NCBI GenBank assembly: GCA_958296385.1
Contig: OY282494.1
Coordinates: 219,416 to 283,415 of the forward strand
From: an uncultured Dehalococcoidia bacterium
GTDB taxonomy: Bacteria; Chloroflexota; Dehalococcoidia; Lucifugimonadales; UBA3495
DNA length: 64,000 bases
Direction of reading: 5' to 3'
In this document: positions 20,351-35,398 of the stretch, piece after piece
How positions within the stretch are numbered: the stretch's first letter is position 1
Layout: every line of letters starts with the position of its first letter
The notes under the pieces: generated by a model
Database searches by the model: none
Told to the model about the DNA's origin: nothing
Seen by the model: only the letters and a program-made list of their open reading frames with translations
Translations under genes and position numbers: made by a program

Positions 20351-20380
20351 TTAGCAGACACTACCGACAGGAGCGTTATT

Positions 20381-21037
20381 ATGACTACGCAACCGCCCGC
20401 GCACAGCCATCCGGAGGACGCGGCTCCCGTTCACGTGATTGTCTGGTACGACTACGTTTGACCCTGGTGCTATGTCGGCCTGGAACGCGTCGACCGGCTG
20501 GAACAGGAATATGACATTACGGTTGAGGGGCGGGCTTATCTGCTGCGTCCGGATACGCCGGAGGGGGGACGGCCGCGGGAGCCGCGGGCCGGGGAAACGG
20601 AGGATGAGTTGACGGAACCGCTGCGGACTCAGGCGCGGGATGCGAACCTGGTGATGCGGCCGCCCCGCTACACGCACAACAGCCTGCACTCGTTGCAGGC
20701 CACGGAGTACGCGCAGCAGCAGGGCAAGTTTATGGAGTACCACCACGCCGCTTACCGCGCCTATTGGGACGACCGGGCCGACCTGGGGGACCCGTCGGTG
20801 CTGGCGGACATCGGGGCCAGCGTGGGGCTGGACGCGGCCGACTTGCGGCGCAGCGTTGAATCGGGCGAACACGCGCAGCGGGTGATTGGCCAGTACCAGG
20901 AGGCGTTGGGCTACGGTATCCGGGGGATTCCGACTTTTGTGTTTGACAACCTGCTGTTCACCGGCGCCCAACCCTACGAGGTGTTTCAACGGGTGATGGA
21001 CAAGGCGCTGGAGAATCGGGAGGCGGGCGCAGAGTAG
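20381..21037 (+). CDS. DsbA/FrnE-like thiol oxidoreductase, predicted selenoprotein (UPWC)
   Basis: The reading frame starts at ATG 20381 (AGGAG eight bases upstream) and contains one in-frame TGA at 20459-20461, codon 27. Reading it as selenocysteine gives 218 residues. The context is VIVWYDYV-U-PWC-YVGLERV, matching the CPWCYVG active site of FrnE/DsbA-like thioredoxin-fold proteins with the first Cys replaced by Sec. The rest of the fold continues without interruption: a helical insert, YTHNSLHSLQATEYAQQQGK, and the cis-Pro loop RGIPTFVFDN with the C-terminal helix. A candidate SECIS hairpin begins 14 bases after the TGA. No signal peptide is seen, so it is probably cytoplasmic like FrnE. 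A single-base pseudogene (TGC/TGT to TGA) is the alternative, made unlikely by a second gene of the same type at 32757. Confidence 0.85.
20475..20501 (+). promoter_or_regulatory. Candidate bacterial SECIS element of the FrnE-like gene
   Basis: The hairpin pairs TCGGCC (20475-20480) with GGCTGG-side bases 20496-20501 (with two G-U pairs at the base), then has a bulged T at 20481, GG/CC pairs, and an upper C-G stack leaving an apical CGT. A bulged U and a GU in the apical loop, placed some 20-30 bases after the UGA, are the features SelB recognises in bacterial SECIS elements. Folded by eye. Confidence 0.5.
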
Positions 21038-21070
21038 GACTGGCCGGGGCGGGGCGGCAGCGTTTCGTTT

Positions 21071-29048: not shown

Positions 29049-29429
29049 TTACCGGCCGGCGTTATGCGGGGGTTGGGGCGGCAGCGGGCGCCAGCGGGTA
29101 TTGGTTTCTGAGATTGTCCATAGGTAGCCTGTCCAATCCCGTTCCTCGAGCAGGGTGTGCGTTACCAGCCGGATTATTTCGGATGGGTGCATACCTGCCA
29201 AACGAAACAGGATTACGGCCGGGCGCGCCGGATGGGCCTGTCTGTAAATCAGCTCCCCGAAATCGGTATCATGGGTGGCTAGTATCCGGTCGTCCTGCTC
29301 TGCCCATGCCATAACATCGGGGTCGGGCAGCTGTGGCGCATCTTCGGCAATCGCTATCACGTCGTGCCCGTTGTCGCGTAGCAGCGTAACGATAACCTCC
29401 GACATATTCTCATCAATCATAAGACGCAT
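29049..29429 (-). CDS. DUF5615 PIN-like toxin
   Basis: A 126-residue PIN-like nuclease of the DUF5615/Mut7-C type. The start MRLMIDENMSEVIVTLLRDNGHDV supplies the first acidic pair, and RILATHDTDFGELIYRQ the central Asp motif. Such proteins are RNase toxins of type II toxin-antitoxin modules. The upstream DUF433 gene ends only seven bases before its start, the standard order of antitoxin then toxin. Confidence 0.85.
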   Translation of the reverse strand: MRLMIDENMSEVIVTLLRDNGHDVIAIAEDAPQLPDPDVMAWAEQDDRILATHDTDFGELIYRQAHPARPAVILFRLAGMHPSEIIRLVTHTLLEERDWTGYLWTISETNTRWRPLPPQPPHNAGR

Positions 29430-29436
29430 TTGCAGC

Positions 29437-29748
29437 TTAGTCCTGCTGCGCTACGATTTCCGGCGCCGGCAGCTTTCTTTCCTCCACCAATTCCCAATCA
29501 TCGCTCTCGAGAAAATCGTTACCCCTATACCAGTCCGGCTTTTGCCAGTTCAGATTTTCGCTGGCGTAGAGGCAGCAGGCCCGTATGTCCTCAACTGCTA
29601 GCTGAGGGTAGTATTTCACAATGTCGTTTTCGGTAGAGCCGCCGGCCAGCAGGTTCAGGATAAAGGAAACGGCAAGCCGCGTCCCCTGTACCCTTGGTTT
29701 GCCTACGAGGATGTTAGGATCAGTGACGATTCGCTCGCGCAAGTCCAT
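29437..29748 (-). CDS. DUF433 antitoxin
   Basis: A 103-residue DUF433 protein (VapB45-like helix-turn-helix antitoxin). MDLRERIVTDPNILVGKPRVQGTRLAVSFILNLLAGG is the family signature, followed by the YPQLAVEDIRACCLYA helix. ATG 29748 was chosen because GGAGG lies seven bases upstream; an in-frame extension to 29817 lacks similarity. It pairs with the DUF5615 toxin directly downstream and presumably represses the operon. Confidence 0.87.
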   Translation of the reverse strand: MDLRERIVTDPNILVGKPRVQGTRLAVSFILNLLAGGSTENDIVKYYPQLAVEDIRACCLYASENLNWQKPDWYRGNDFLESDDWELVEERKLPAPEIVAQQD

Positions 29749-29878
29749 AGGATTGCCTCCAGTCAACGATCTTCGGCCGTTACCCCTCTTGATGGGATTA
29801 TAGCATAGCCAAATCATCGGGCGAATCCGGTTTATCGTGTTCAGTCCCGTTGAGACTTGGTTGGGGTAGAATTGGGGT

Positions 29879-32578
29879 ATGTCATTGCAGCGACTTACGC
29901 CGGTCAGACGCCAGTATCTGACTATTAAGCACTCTTATCCGGATGCGGTTTTGCTGTTTCGGATGGGGGATTTTTATGAGTGTTTTGATGATGATGCGCG
30001 GACGCTGGCGGGGGCTTTGGAGATTGCGCTGACGGCGCGGACGATGGGGCGGGATACGCGGGTGCCGATGGCCGGGGTGCCGGCGGTGTCGCTGGAATCT
30101 AATTTGGCCCGGTTGATTCGGCAGGGGCATAAGGTTGCTATTTGTGAGCAGCTTAGCGATCCGGCGTTGTCCAAGGGGCTGGTGGAGCGGGGGGTGGTGC
30201 GGGTGGTTACGCCGGGGACGGTGCTGGAGGCGACGCTGCTGGAGCAGAACGCCAACAATTATCTGGCCGCGGTGTGCGCCGGGGACGGGGCCGATGCCGA
30301 GACCGTTGGGCTGGCTTACGTTGACGTTACTACCGGCGAGTTCACGGTGGCGCAGGTTGCGGCGGAGCTGCTGCCGCTAGAGCTGGCGCGTATCCAGCCG
30401 GCGGAGATTCTGATGCCGGCGGTATCGGCATCGGGAGCAGCATCGGCATCGGGAGCAGCATCGGCATCGGCATCGGCATCGGAGCTGCCGGGGGGGATGG
30501 GGCTGCTGCCGGGGGGGGTGGCTGGTACGGCGGTGGATGCGGCGTCTTTTAACGGGGAGGTGGCCCGGCGCAGTTTGCTGGATTATTACGGGGTGGTTTC
30601 GCTGGAGGCTTATGGGCTGGAGGCGATGCCGCTGGCGGTGCGGGCGGGCGGGGCGATTGTGGATTATTTGCGGTACGCTTACAAGGGCGACCAGCCGACA
30701 CTGAATCCGCCGGCGCCGTATCACGTTGACTCGCATATGACGCTGGATCCGCAGACACGGCGCAATCTGGAGCTGTTTGAGGCGGGGCGCTGGGATTCCA
30801 GCGACTGGTCGCTGCTGGCGGCGCTGGATGATACGCGCACGGCGCTGGGGGCGCGGCGGCTGCGGCGGTGGCTGGGGCAGCCGCTGCTGGATTTGCAGCG
30901 TTTGCGGCGGCGGCAGGATGCGGTGCAGTTTTTTTACGACGACGCTTTCCGGCGCAATGACGCGGGGACGGCGCTGTCGGAGATTGCCGATTTGGAACGG
31001 ATACTGAGCCGGTTGCAGACGCAGACGGCGACGCCGCGGGACTTGCTGGCGCTGCGGCGCAGTCTGGAGGCAACGCGGCAGCTGGCCGGCGTGCTGTCCG
31101 GCGGTCTGTCGGGCGATGACGAACAGGGGCTGTCGTGGCTGTTGGAGGGGTTTCGGCAGCCGCCGGACGTGGAGAGTCTGATTGAACGGGCCATCGCGGC
31201 GGAACCGTCGGGGCAGATTGGGGAGGGGGGCGTTATCCGGGAGGGGTTTGCGCCGGACTTGGACCGGGTGCGGGGGCTGGCCCGCGATACGCGGGGGGTT
31301 ATCGCCGGGCTGGAGGCGCAGGAACGGGAGCGCACCGGCATCCGCAACCTGCGGGTGGGGTACAACCAGGTGTTTGGGTATTACATTGAGGTGAGCCGGT
31401 CGCATCTGGCCGCCGTTCCGGATGACTACCAGCGCCGGCAGACGCTGGCGAATGGTGAACGCTACATTACGCCGGAGCTTAAGGAATACGAGAGCCAGGC
31501 GCTGGACGCGCGGGAGCGGCTGGATGAGCTGGAGCGCAGTATCTACCGGCAGGTGTGCAGCCAGATTACGGCCAACGGGCCGGCCATCTCGCGGCTGGCG
31601 GGGGCTGTGGCCGTTACCGACGTGTTCGTGGGGCTGGCCAACGTTGCGGTGCGTTATGATTACGTGCGTCCGGCGCTGAACGAGGGCAAGGCGATAGACA
31701 TAACGGACGGGCGGCATCCGGTGGTGGAGCGGGTGCTGGACGCGGGAAGTTTTGTGCCTAACACCGCTAATCTGGATGCTAACGACGCTCAGATTATGCT
31801 GATTACCGGGCCTAACATGGCCGGCAAGTCAACCTACATCCGGCAGGTAGCGCTGATTGTGCTGATGGCACAGGTGGGGAGTTTTGTGCCGGCGACGGCG
31901 GCGGAGATTGGGCTGGTAGATCGCATCTTTACGCGGGTGGGATTGCAGGACGATTTGGCGACGGGGCAATCCACGTTTATGGTGGAGATGCTGGAAACGG
32001 CCGCTATTCTCAATCAGGCTACGCACCGGTCGCTGGTAATTCTGGACGAAATCGGGCGGGGCACCAGCACCTACGACGGGCTGTCAATTGCTCATGCGGT
32101 GGTGGAGCATCTGCACAACAACCCGCGACTGGGCTGCAAGACGCTGTTCGCTACGCATTATCACGAGCTGACCGACTTGGCGGCTACGCTGCCGGGCGTG
32201 CGGAACTACCGGGTGGCGGTGTCGGAGGAGAACGGCGAGGCGGTGTTTCTGCGGCACATTGTTCCGGGCGGGGCGGATCGTTCCTACGGGGTGCACGTGG
32301 CCCGGCTGGCCGGGATGCCGCCGGCGGTGGTTAACCGGGCTCAGGAGATACTGGCCAATCTGGAGGCGGAGCATACGCCGGGGGCCCGGCGGGGTCGAGG
32401 TGGACGGCGCAATCAGACGCCAGCGCCGCAACTGGCGATGCCGCTGTTCGGGCCGCCGGATGACGCAATCGCTGAGTCAATCCTGCAAGTGGACATTGGC
32501 AACCTGACGCCGCTGGAGGCAATCAACAAGCTGTACGAGCTGCAAGAGCAGGCCCGGCAGCGGCGGGGCGTATCCTAA
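29879..32578 (+). CDS. mutS: DNA mismatch repair protein MutS
   Basis: MutS binds mismatches and, with MutL, starts repair. The 899-residue product begins with the mismatch-binding domain (TPVRRQYLTIKHSYPDAVLLFRMGDFYE, containing the Phe-x-Glu mismatch wedge region), followed by connector, lever and clamp domains, and the ATPase with Walker A GPNMAGKST at about residue 643 and DEIGRGTSTYDG. FATHYHEL and the C-terminal helix-turn-helix are present. A low-complexity Ser/Ala/Gly insert at about residues 183-202 is encoded by a hexanucleotide repeat tract. mutL lies 1.1 kb downstream in the same direction. Confidence 0.97.
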   Translation: MSLQRLTPVRRQYLTIKHSYPDAVLLFRMGDFYECFDDDARTLAGALEIALTARTMGRDTRVPMAGVPAVSLESNLARLIRQGHKVAICEQLSDPALSKGLVERGVVRVVTPGTVLEATLLEQNANNYLAAVCAGDGADAETVGLAYVDVTTGEFTVAQVAAELLPLELARIQPAEILMPAVSASGAASASGAASASASASELPGGMGLLPGGVAGTAVDAASFNGEVARRSLLDYYGVVSLEAYGLEAMPLAVRAGGAIVDYLRYAYKGDQPTLNPPAPYHVDSHMTLDPQTRRNLELFEAGRWDSSDWSLLAALDDTRTALGARRLRRWLGQPLLDLQRLRRRQDAVQFFYDDAFRRNDAGTALSEIADLERILSRLQTQTATPRDLLALRRSLEATRQLAGVLSGGLSGDDEQGLSWLLEGFRQPPDVESLIERAIAAEPSGQIGEGGVIREGFAPDLDRVRGLARDTRGVIAGLEAQERERTGIRNLRVGYNQVFGYYIEVSRSHLAAVPDDYQRRQTLANGERYITPELKEYESQALDARERLDELERSIYRQVCSQITANGPAISRLAGAVAVTDVFVGLANVAVRYDYVRPALNEGKAIDITDGRHPVVERVLDAGSFVPNTANLDANDAQIMLITGPNMAGKSTYIRQVALIVLMAQVGSFVPATAAEIGLVDRIFTRVGLQDDLATGQSTFMVEMLETAAILNQATHRSLVILDEIGRGTSTYDGLSIAHAVVEHLHNNPRLGCKTLFATHYHELTDLAATLPGVRNYRVAVSEENGEAVFLRHIVPGGADRSYGVHVARLAGMPPAVVNRAQEILANLEAEHTPGARRGRGGRRNQTPAPQLAMPLFGPPDDAIAESILQVDIGNLTPLEAINKLYELQEQARQRRGVS
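30423..30482. repeat. Hexanucleotide repeat tract inside mutS
   Basis: Ten hexamers: TATCGG, CATCGG and GAGCAG arranged as an 18-bp superunit twice, then four pure CATCGG copies at 30459-30482. Each hexamer adds two residues (Ser/Ala/Gly), so slippage changes length without a frameshift. The tract is in the linker between the N-terminal and connector domains. Confidence 0.92.
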
Positions 32579-32756: not shown

Positions 32757-33131
32757 ATGGCTGAGAGCGCGACGCTTTATTGGTGGCCCCGTTGAAGCAG
32801 CTGCCGCAAGGTACGGGAGTTGCTCGTGCAGAATGGTGTTGCGGTGACGGAACGGGACTATTTTAAGGAGCCTTTTACCGAATCTGAGCTGCGCGCGCTG
32901 GTTGACGAAAGCGGCGATGCGGGCGTCAGCGGGATGTTTGCCAGTCGCAGTCCGTCGCTTAAGAAGATGGGTTTGGATGCGTCGGAGCTGTCGGACGAGC
33001 GCAAGCTGGAGCTGATGCTGGGGGAACCGCGATTGGTGCGGCGGCCGATTATCCGGCTGGACGGGCGGCTGGACGGGCGGCTGCTCATCGGGGCCAACAT
33101 CAAGGCGGTGACTGAGGCGCTGAACGCCTGA
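32757..33131 (+). CDS. ArsC/Spx-like reductase, predicted selenoprotein (USSC)
   Basis: The frame starts at ATG 32757 and has an in-frame TGA at 32793-32795, codon 13. Read as selenocysteine, the 124-residue product begins MAESATLYWWPR-U-SSCRKVRELL, the exact position of the redox Cys in the CxxC motif of ArsC/Spx/YffB-like thioredoxin-fold proteins. The rest of the family pattern follows: RDYFKEPFTESELRALVD, and RRPIIRLDGR near the C-terminus with the conserved Arg-Pro cis-Pro site. A good SECIS hairpin begins one base after the TGA. Without readthrough only a 12-residue peptide would be made. It lies between mutS and a HAD/mutL pair. Arsenate or another oxidised thiol/selenol target is possible; the substrate is unknown. 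Confidence 0.87.
32797..32823 (+). promoter_or_regulatory. Candidate bacterial SECIS element of the ArsC-like gene
   Basis: GCAGCT (32797-32802) pairs with AGTTGC (32818-32823), including one G-U; after one G-G mismatch, CCG (32804-32806) pairs with CGG (32814-32816). The 7-base apical loop CAAGGTA contains GGU, as in the loop of the Escherichia coli fdhF SECIS. It lies 12-18 bases after the UGA. Folded by eye. Confidence 0.65.
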
Positions 33132-33208: not shown

Positions 33209-33646
33209 ATGAGAATATTCTTTGACGTTGACTACACTATCCTGGGGCTGGACGACACCCTGCGCCCCGGGACGATTGACACCTTCCAAAAGCTGCTGGA
33301 CGACGGCCACGAAATCCACATTTGGTCGGGGATGGGGGAGCGGTGGGAGGTTATTGAGAAGCACGAACTGCAACGGTTCGTTAGCGGGGTGTACGAAAAG
33401 CCGACGCATCATTACCACGAGCGGCTGGTGGAGTTGCAAATTCCGGTGGAGCCGGAGTTTGTGATTGACGACTATCCGGAAATTGTAGCGGCTTTCGGGG
33501 GAGTGTGGGTGCCGCCGTACTTCTTTTCCCGCAGCGTGGACAACGAAATGGATCGCATCTACCGGATAATTTGCGACTTCATCCGGACGGGGGATTCCGA
33601 AGACCGGCAATACCGGGCCAAAGGCACCAAGCTGCCGCTGTTCTAG
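33209..33646 (+). CDS. Small HAD-like phosphatase
   Basis: A 145-residue protein with the minimal HAD core and no cap. Motif I is FFDVDYTILGLDD (D6, D8), motif II IHIWSGMGERW, and the C-terminal acidic motif is FVIDDYPEIV. Its small size resembles capless HAD phosphatases. It ends seven bases before mutL, so both are probably one transcript. The substrate is unknown. Confidence 0.75.
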   Translation: MRIFFDVDYTILGLDDTLRPGTIDTFQKLLDDGHEIHIWSGMGERWEVIEKHELQRFVSGVYEKPTHHYHERLVELQIPVEPEFVIDDYPEIVAAFGGVWVPPYFFSRSVDNEMDRIYRIICDFIRTGDSEDRQYRAKGTKLPLF

Positions 33647-33652
33647 GAAACT

Positions 33653-35398
33653 ATGCCAATCCAGCAGCTTTCGCCTGACGTTGCCGCTCAGATTGCCGCC
33701 GGGGAGGTGGTGGAGCGGCCGGCTTCGGTGGTTAAGGAACTGGTGGAGAACGCTTTGGACGCCGGGGCCGGGCGTATTGAGGTGTCGGTCCGGGAGGGTG
33801 GGGTTGCGGAAATTCGGGTTACCGACGACGGGTGCGGGATTCCGGCGGGGGAAATTGACCTGGCGTTCCGGCGGCACGCTACCAGCAAGCTGACGACGGC
33901 TGCGGATTTGGAATCGGTGGCGACGCTGGGGTTTCGGGGGGAGGCTTTGCCAAGCATTGCGGCGGTGTCCAGGGTGACGCTGACGACCCGGACGCCCAAC
34001 GCTGACGCCGGGATGCGGGTTGACTACCGCTACGGGGAGCGGACGGCGGCGACGGAGCTGGGCTGTCCGGTGGGGACGACGGTGCAGGCGGTGGAGCTGT
34101 TTGGCAATTTGCCGGCACGCCGTCGCTTTTTACGCAGCACTGCCGCCGAAACCGCCCGGGTGCAGGAGGTGGTGACGCGCTACGCGCTGGCCTGTCCAAG
34201 CGTCCGGTTCTCGTTTATAGCCGATGGCCGGGGCGTGGTGAACACTACGGGCAGCAACCGTTTGTCGGAAACTATCCTGGCTATCTACGGCGGCGAGGTG
34301 GCAGCGCGGATGCTGCCGGTGTACACGGTGGATGCCGACGTTACCGTGGACGGCTACGCCAGCGCGCCGGAGTTGAGCCGGCACAACCGCTCTTTTATGA
34401 CTTTGCTGGTCAACGGGCGGTGGGTGTACGACCGGCGGATACTGTACGCCGTGGAGCAGGCTTACCAGGGGGTGCTGCCGGAACGACGCTATCCCATTGC
34501 GGTGGTCAACCTGGCGCTGCCGGCGGAGCTGGTGGACGTGAACTCGCACCCGACGAAGCGGGAGGTGCGGTTTCGGCAGGAATCGCGGCTGTTCTCAATC
34601 GTGCAGCGGACGGTGCGGGACGCGCTGCTGGCCCATGCGCCGGCCCGGACCGCGCGGCGGGGGCCGGCGGTGGTTGACGCACCGGAGTCGCCGCAGGATG
34701 GATGGGGCCGGTCGGCATCGGTAAGCGTCCCGTCCGGCGGGCAATCCGGGGGGGCGCAGCAAGGGGTTGATGCGGCGCTGCCGTCGGCGTTTCCGAGTCA
34801 AGCGGCACCGCTGCGGCAGACTTTGGCATCGCTGAGGGTGGTTGGTCAAATCCATCAGACCTATATCGTGGCAGAGGGGGATGGGGGGATGTTTCTGGTT
34901 GACCAGCACGCGGCGCACGAGCGGGTGGTTTATGACCGGATTATGGAGCAGTGGGCGGGCCGGCAGCATACGTCGCAACCTTTGCTGGCGCCATGCACTG
35001 TGGAGCTTACTTTTGCGCAGCAGGATACGCTGCGGGAGTACGTCGAGCTGCTGGCGGCGTCCGGGTTTGACGTTGCGCCTTTTGGGGATAACGCGTGGCT
35101 GCTGCGGGCGGTGCCGCCGGTGCTGGCGTCAAACGGGGTTGAGCCGGTGCAGGCGCTGACGGAGCTGCTGGACGCCGTGGCGGTGGAACAGGTGGTGATG
35201 GAGCGGGAAAAGGCGCTGGCGGCGACGCTGGCGTGCCACGGTTCGGTGCGGGCGGGGATGACGCTGACCACGGGCGAGATGACGGCGCTATTGAAACAAT
35301 TGGAGGTTACCGGGGAGCCTCATCACTGCCCGCACGGGCGGCCTACGGTGGTGCACTTCTCTGAGTACCAGCTGGAGCGGGAGTTCGGCCGGCGGTAA
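33653..35398 (+). CDS. mutL: DNA mismatch repair protein MutL
   Basis: The 581-residue protein has the GHKL ATPase domain with IAAGEVVERPASVVKELVEN, DDGCGIP and GFRGEALPSIA, then a flexible linker (about 335-395), and a C-terminal dimerisation/endonuclease domain. The metal motif DQHAAHERVVYD (usual last residue E), ACHGSVRAG and CPHGRPT indicate a nicking endonuclease type, as expected in bacteria without MutH. It is downstream of mutS, with the ArsC-like selenoprotein and a HAD gene between. Confidence 0.96.
   Translation: MPIQQLSPDVAAQIAAGEVVERPASVVKELVENALDAGAGRIEVSVREGGVAEIRVTDDGCGIPAGEIDLAFRRHATSKLTTAADLESVATLGFRGEALPSIAAVSRVTLTTRTPNADAGMRVDYRYGERTAATELGCPVGTTVQAVELFGNLPARRRFLRSTAAETARVQEVVTRYALACPSVRFSFIADGRGVVNTTGSNRLSETILAIYGGEVAARMLPVYTVDADVTVDGYASAPELSRHNRSFMTLLVNGRWVYDRRILYAVEQAYQGVLPERRYPIAVVNLALPAELVDVNSHPTKREVRFRQESRLFSIVQRTVRDALLAHAPARTARRGPAVVDAPESPQDGWGRSASVSVPSGGQSGGAQQGVDAALPSAFPSQAAPLRQTLASLRVVGQIHQTYIVAEGDGGMFLVDQHAAHERVVYDRIMEQWAGRQHTSQPLLAPCTVELTFAQQDTLREYVELLAASGFDVAPFGDNAWLLRAVPPVLASNGVEPVQALTELLDAVAVEQVVMEREKALAATLACHGSVRAGMTLTTGEMTALLKQLEVTGEPHHCPHGRPTVVHFSEYQLEREFGRR

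Follow-up and report, generated by a model that had tools for sequence, protein, structure and literature searches.

Comparative evidence for a widely conserved ArsC/Spx-like selenoprotein with a covarying SECIS hairpin in SAR202 Chloroflexota

Proteins of the arsenate reductase type that contain selenocysteine (Sec) have been described in several settings. A 2005 study of the Sargasso Sea reported a Sec-containing arsenate reductase with a UxxS motif (PMC1088965), Zhang & Gladyshev in 2008 predicted from ocean metagenomes a selenoprotein family named 'Arsenate reductase 2', with a UxxC motif and assigned to cd03032 ArsC_Spx (PMC2398784), and a 2026 review places a UxxC arsenate reductase-like selenoprotein in the NCBIfam family NF041106, ArsC_rel_Se_1 (PMC13188914). 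Here we compare with these systems a gene at positions 32757-33131 (+) of a 64,000-nucleotide stretch of DNA (the window) from a SAR202/Dehalococcoidia bacterium of the Chloroflexota, whose genome is a single contig of 3.3 Mb. Like the Sargasso Sea protein, its product falls within COG1393, has a predicted Sec at the catalytic position and is accompanied by a bacterial SECIS, but its motif is UxxC rather than UxxS. With 'Arsenate reductase 2' it shares the ArsC/Spx fold, a first-position Sec in UxxC, a link to marine metagenomes and a bacterial Sec system; that family is known from metagenomic reads, and the likeness is one of description, with identity unproven. Members of NF041106 are likewise ArsC-related with Sec in UxxC, but the window protein reaches 26.4 bits where the cut-off is 85, the best E-value among 27 of its relatives is 2e-10, and a search of the host genome with this model returned zero members over the cut-off. 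Because UxxC ArsC/Spx-like selenoproteins were already predicted in ocean metagenomes (PMC2398784), this kind of protein is known, and the view in the original prediction that such a reductase has no established description holds at best for the lineage; our search of the open-access literature found SAR202 and selenoprotein together in no paper. What is new here, and given for the window family beyond what is described for 'Arsenate reductase 2', is the host lineage with its Sec machinery, a covarying SECIS, the distribution of the gene, repeated Sec/Cys exchange and a mutS-mutL context.

The gene runs from an ATG at 32757 to a TGA at 33129-33131 and encodes 124 amino acids plus stop. Its frame contains one internal stop, a TGA at codon 13 (32793-32795, +), and the read-through protein begins MAESATLYWWPR-U-SSCRKVRELL, with the motif in the context WWPR-U-SSCRK. 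This protein matches the Pfam family ArsC (PF03960) with 56.3 bits against a gathering cut-off of 24 (E 4e-15), which together with its ArsC fold places it in that family. U13 aligns to the catalytic Cys12 of Escherichia coli ArsC, whose sequence was matched against PDB 1i9d, and to Cys10 of Bacillus subtilis Spx. The second residue of the U-x-x-C pair, Cys16 (32802-32804, +), is a putative resolving Cys and is invariant in a 27-sequence alignment. Reading frame, Pfam match and alignment thus bear out the original prediction of a lone internal stop lying at the catalytic Cys of an ArsC/Spx-like gene. The nearest relatives at the protein level come from metagenome-assembled genomes of the SAR202 cluster, Dehalococcoidia and Chloroflexota, several of them of sponge or deep-water origin according to their isolate names, and a plasmid search for homologues gave distant Spx/ArsC matches and nothing nearer.

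An in-frame stop could also arise through a sense-to-stop mutation or a sequencing error, in which case the locus would be a pseudogene or would start downstream at the TTG at 32820; indeed, standard gene finding yields at this locus a 103-amino acid frame alone (32820-33131). Comparison across homologues refutes these readings, and we give them next to no credence. A homologue is present in 145 of 197 genomes of the host's order, 137 of which have one in-frame TGA and eight of which have a Cys codon (TGC or TGT) there; for about 95 of the genomes with UGA its position was verified per codon, and for the others it is deduced from the number of stops. In those position-checked genomes the UGA occupies the same codon and the coding sequence upstream of it is kept, and the UGA exchanges with Cys codons and no others, so that an in-frame UGA stands where homologues hold Cys, as in other bacterial selenoproteins. 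Close relatives of the window gene have UGA rather than an intact Cys. In a phylum-wide sample, 47 of 400 genomes contain a homologue, 40 of these with one TGA, and the UGA form is present too in Smithella and other Syntrophaceae.

A reading as mutation or error is also at odds with a covarying hairpin just after the UGA. In bacterial SECIS elements the apical loop is small and includes a guanosine (PMC1088965). Such an element lies within the coding sequence at 32811-32829 (+), where a 5' arm (GUACGGG, 32811-32817), a loop (AGUUG, 32818-32822) and a 3' arm (CUCGUGC, 32823-32829) make up a 7-bp stem and 5-nt loop that begins 15 nt after the UGA, with 22 nt between UGA and loop. Across 47 divergent UGA sequences, 93.6% of the cells of this stem are paired, falling to 37-65% when the stem is slid to other registers, and five of the seven pairs show compensatory changes (40 cells), a result matched by 0 of 500 shuffles. 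RNAalifold recovers the hairpin unaided, all seven pairs form in nearly all UGA homologues, and a covariance model of it finds in the window (54 bits) its sole significant match in both window and genome. Of the 151 distinct UGA sequences, 129 have an uninterrupted stem of at least 7 bp with a G-containing loop; so does 1 of 13 Cys sequences and, among codon-shuffled controls, 5.9%. The second loop position is G in 113 of 117 distinct sequences, and in the 3' arm Leu is encoded by CTC or CTT in 145 of 151 UGA sequences, although CTG is the commonest downstream. An Rfam search of the window returned one tRNA and no other match.

The SECIS had originally been placed elsewhere, in a hairpin with a CAAGGUA loop that starts directly after the UGA. 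This structure does form in the sequence, with 10 pairs as folded, and is the minimum-energy fold of the window sequence; it and the 32811-32829 hairpin are mutually exclusive. As a SECIS we reject it: in 47 diverse UGA sequences 54% of its cells are paired, equal to column shuffles, all pairs are kept within the genus but 2-8 of 10 elsewhere, and no covariation across relatives was found, which together mark it as coincidental. Since the conserved hairpin is weak when the window sequence is taken by itself (codon-shuffle p 0.04) and the CAAGGUA-loop hairpin is the one of minimum energy, the case for the SECIS rests on comparison. A minority of UGA homologues, in families f20 and f74 and genus g74, lack a hairpin in the 32811-32829 register, though in most of them a different hairpin with a G loop lies close by; by eye and by stem search, the stem is bulged in f20 and shifted and shorter in f74 and g74. 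In genus g74, which belongs to family f29, the UGA loci L106, L217, L218 and L219 have, in place of the usual hairpin, a shorter, 5-bp stem with a GUC loop in another register.

Decoding of the UGA would require Sec machinery, and the host genome encodes it: selA (536 bits), selB (357 bits), selD (374 bits) and a tRNA-Sec, the product of selC, with a UCA anticodon (66 bits) all score above their curated cut-offs. The host selD (1766127-1767047 of the contig, -) has a single in-frame TGA of its own, as would fit a selenophosphate synthetase that contains Sec. Genomes with the UGA form tend also to have selB (odds ratio 9.6, Fisher p 6e-6, a p-value that is too small because related genomes are non-independent samples). 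Two Cys genomes (G031 and G042) have no selB over the cut-off, and in neither does a tRNA-Sec stand out clearly from the other long-arm tRNAs; the remaining six Cys genomes of the order retain the machinery. Five UGA genomes, all fragmented or incomplete assemblies, are missing a selB over the cut-off; in the three of these checked for tRNA-Sec, it scores clearly over the cut-off in G131 and G120 and not in G090.

Given the exchange of UGA and Cys at the exact codon, the covarying SECIS and the complete Sec machinery, a Sec-containing ArsC/Spx-type protein, as first proposed, is strongly supported. On this comparative sequence evidence we are confident that 32757-33131 encodes a selenoprotein whose UGA13 is read as Sec, and we regard the gene as a genuine, widely conserved predicted selenoprotein gene. 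The further claim that the window holds two redox genes with UGA at the redox motif is also confirmed: a DsbA-family gene at about 20378-21038 (+; PF01323, E 1e-33) has an in-frame TGA (20459-20461) at the first Cys of its redox motif, V-U-P-W-C, and is very likely a second Sec gene.

The Cys forms of the order are placed among Sec forms in a tree of 119 proteins, on which the Sec/Cys label switches at least eight times, at least four of them forced by starred branches. The tree was built from 117 columns by a quick method and is weakly resolved and unrooted; the direction of exchange is therefore left unpolarised. A SAR202-type copy (63% identity) also occurs on one contig that is listed under Flavobacteriales, probably through a binning error.

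The Sec gene lies between two mismatch repair genes on the same strand. Upstream is mutS (29879-32578, +; Pfam MutS domains I-V), kept in 31 of 81 loci, and downstream is mutL (33653-35398, +; Pfam MutL_C and DNA_mis_repair), kept in 36 of 81. Between the Sec gene and mutL is a gene for a small protein (33209-33646, +), kept in 19 loci, that matches no Pfam family and by eye has a HAD-like N-terminus. This mutS-mutL setting recurs in the host's family and was not seen in distant carriers of the Sec gene, among which the other neighbours, identified by eye, are msrB/msrA-like in some Dehalococcoidia (L167 and L169) and NUDIX-like in Smithella. The neighbourhood is thus too variable across carriers to fix the function. 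Adjoining genes of the DUF5615 and DUF433 families occupy 29049-29817 (-) of the window; such pairs are often regarded as toxin-antitoxin-like modules.

An AlphaFold model of the window protein (pLDDT 92.7) has its best structural matches in the PDB with Spx (Z 16.1), YffB (16.0) and ArsC (14.5-15.8), and comparison supports a single-domain ArsC/Spx-fold product with a U-S-S-C active site. Spx is the best match in sequence as well as fold, and the U-x-x-C lies exactly on its CxxC switch position. The protein could accordingly be imagined as a redox-controlled regulator of the Spx type that would bind RNA polymerase and in which a selenenylsulfide switch replaces the Cys10-Cys13 disulfide, all the more as its score against the NCBIfam Spx/MgsR model TIGR01617 (70.7 bits) stays just below the cut-off of 75.05 and it is the sole ArsC-family protein found in the host genome. 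We nonetheless consider this unlikely: the protein falls short of the cut-off of every Spx equivalog model, the structures of YffB and ArsC match it nearly as closely as Spx does, and, apart from having Sec for Cys, it lacks the Spx C-terminal tail and belongs to a homologue group in which Gly52 of Spx, the alpha-CTD contact, is not conserved, a difference that is suggestive only.

A selenium-dependent arsenate reductase is a still more doubtful reading. The protein does belong to the ArsC family, and Cys12 and Arg94 of ArsC correspond to its Sec13 and Arg96. Of the three arsenate-site arginines of ArsC (R60, R94 and R107), however, neither Arg60 nor Arg107 is matched by an arginine in the alignment. 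Further, the score against TIGR00014 (Grx-linked arsenate reductase) is 54.2 bits for a cut-off of 106.05, and arsenic genes are absent among the identified neighbours.

As only one of three arsenate-site arginines is retained and both a conserved Gly52 and the Spx tail are lacking, we favour an Spx/YffB-like thiol reductase, or redox switch, that would work through a Sec13-Cys16 couple; a reductase role for the Sec13 protein has, in our estimation, a slightly better than even chance. In our main reading, the ribosome decodes UGA13 as Sec by means of SelB, tRNA-Sec(UCA) and the 32811-32829 hairpin. Sec13 would most likely be the attacking nucleophile and would reduce either a disulfide or a small oxidised substrate; Cys16 would then resolve the Sec13 intermediate by forming a selenenylsulfide, and the couple would be regenerated by a thiol system of the cell. 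What comparison supports is the insertion of Sec, the signal for it and the fold; catalysis, substrate and reductant are what we infer. A bolder reading, to which we assign little probability, would see here a Sec-Spx subfamily that spans the lineage, in SAR202 and in other Chloroflexota, and is missed by current selenoprotein models; it may act as a selenium-based redox switch of transcription or, given its place between mutS and mutL, be tied to DNA repair.

These findings matter for annotation, as standard gene finding would shorten the Sec-containing Spx/ArsC-like protein and so conceal its active site. The repeated exchanges, in which the hairpin goes with Sec and is absent with Cys, offer natural pairs for probing the benefit of Sec in the ArsC/Spx fold. 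Finally, selenoproteins of a kind that metagenomes had predicted can now be tied to a named lineage of the deep ocean and of sponges, for which there is a genome in one contig and a testable SECIS.
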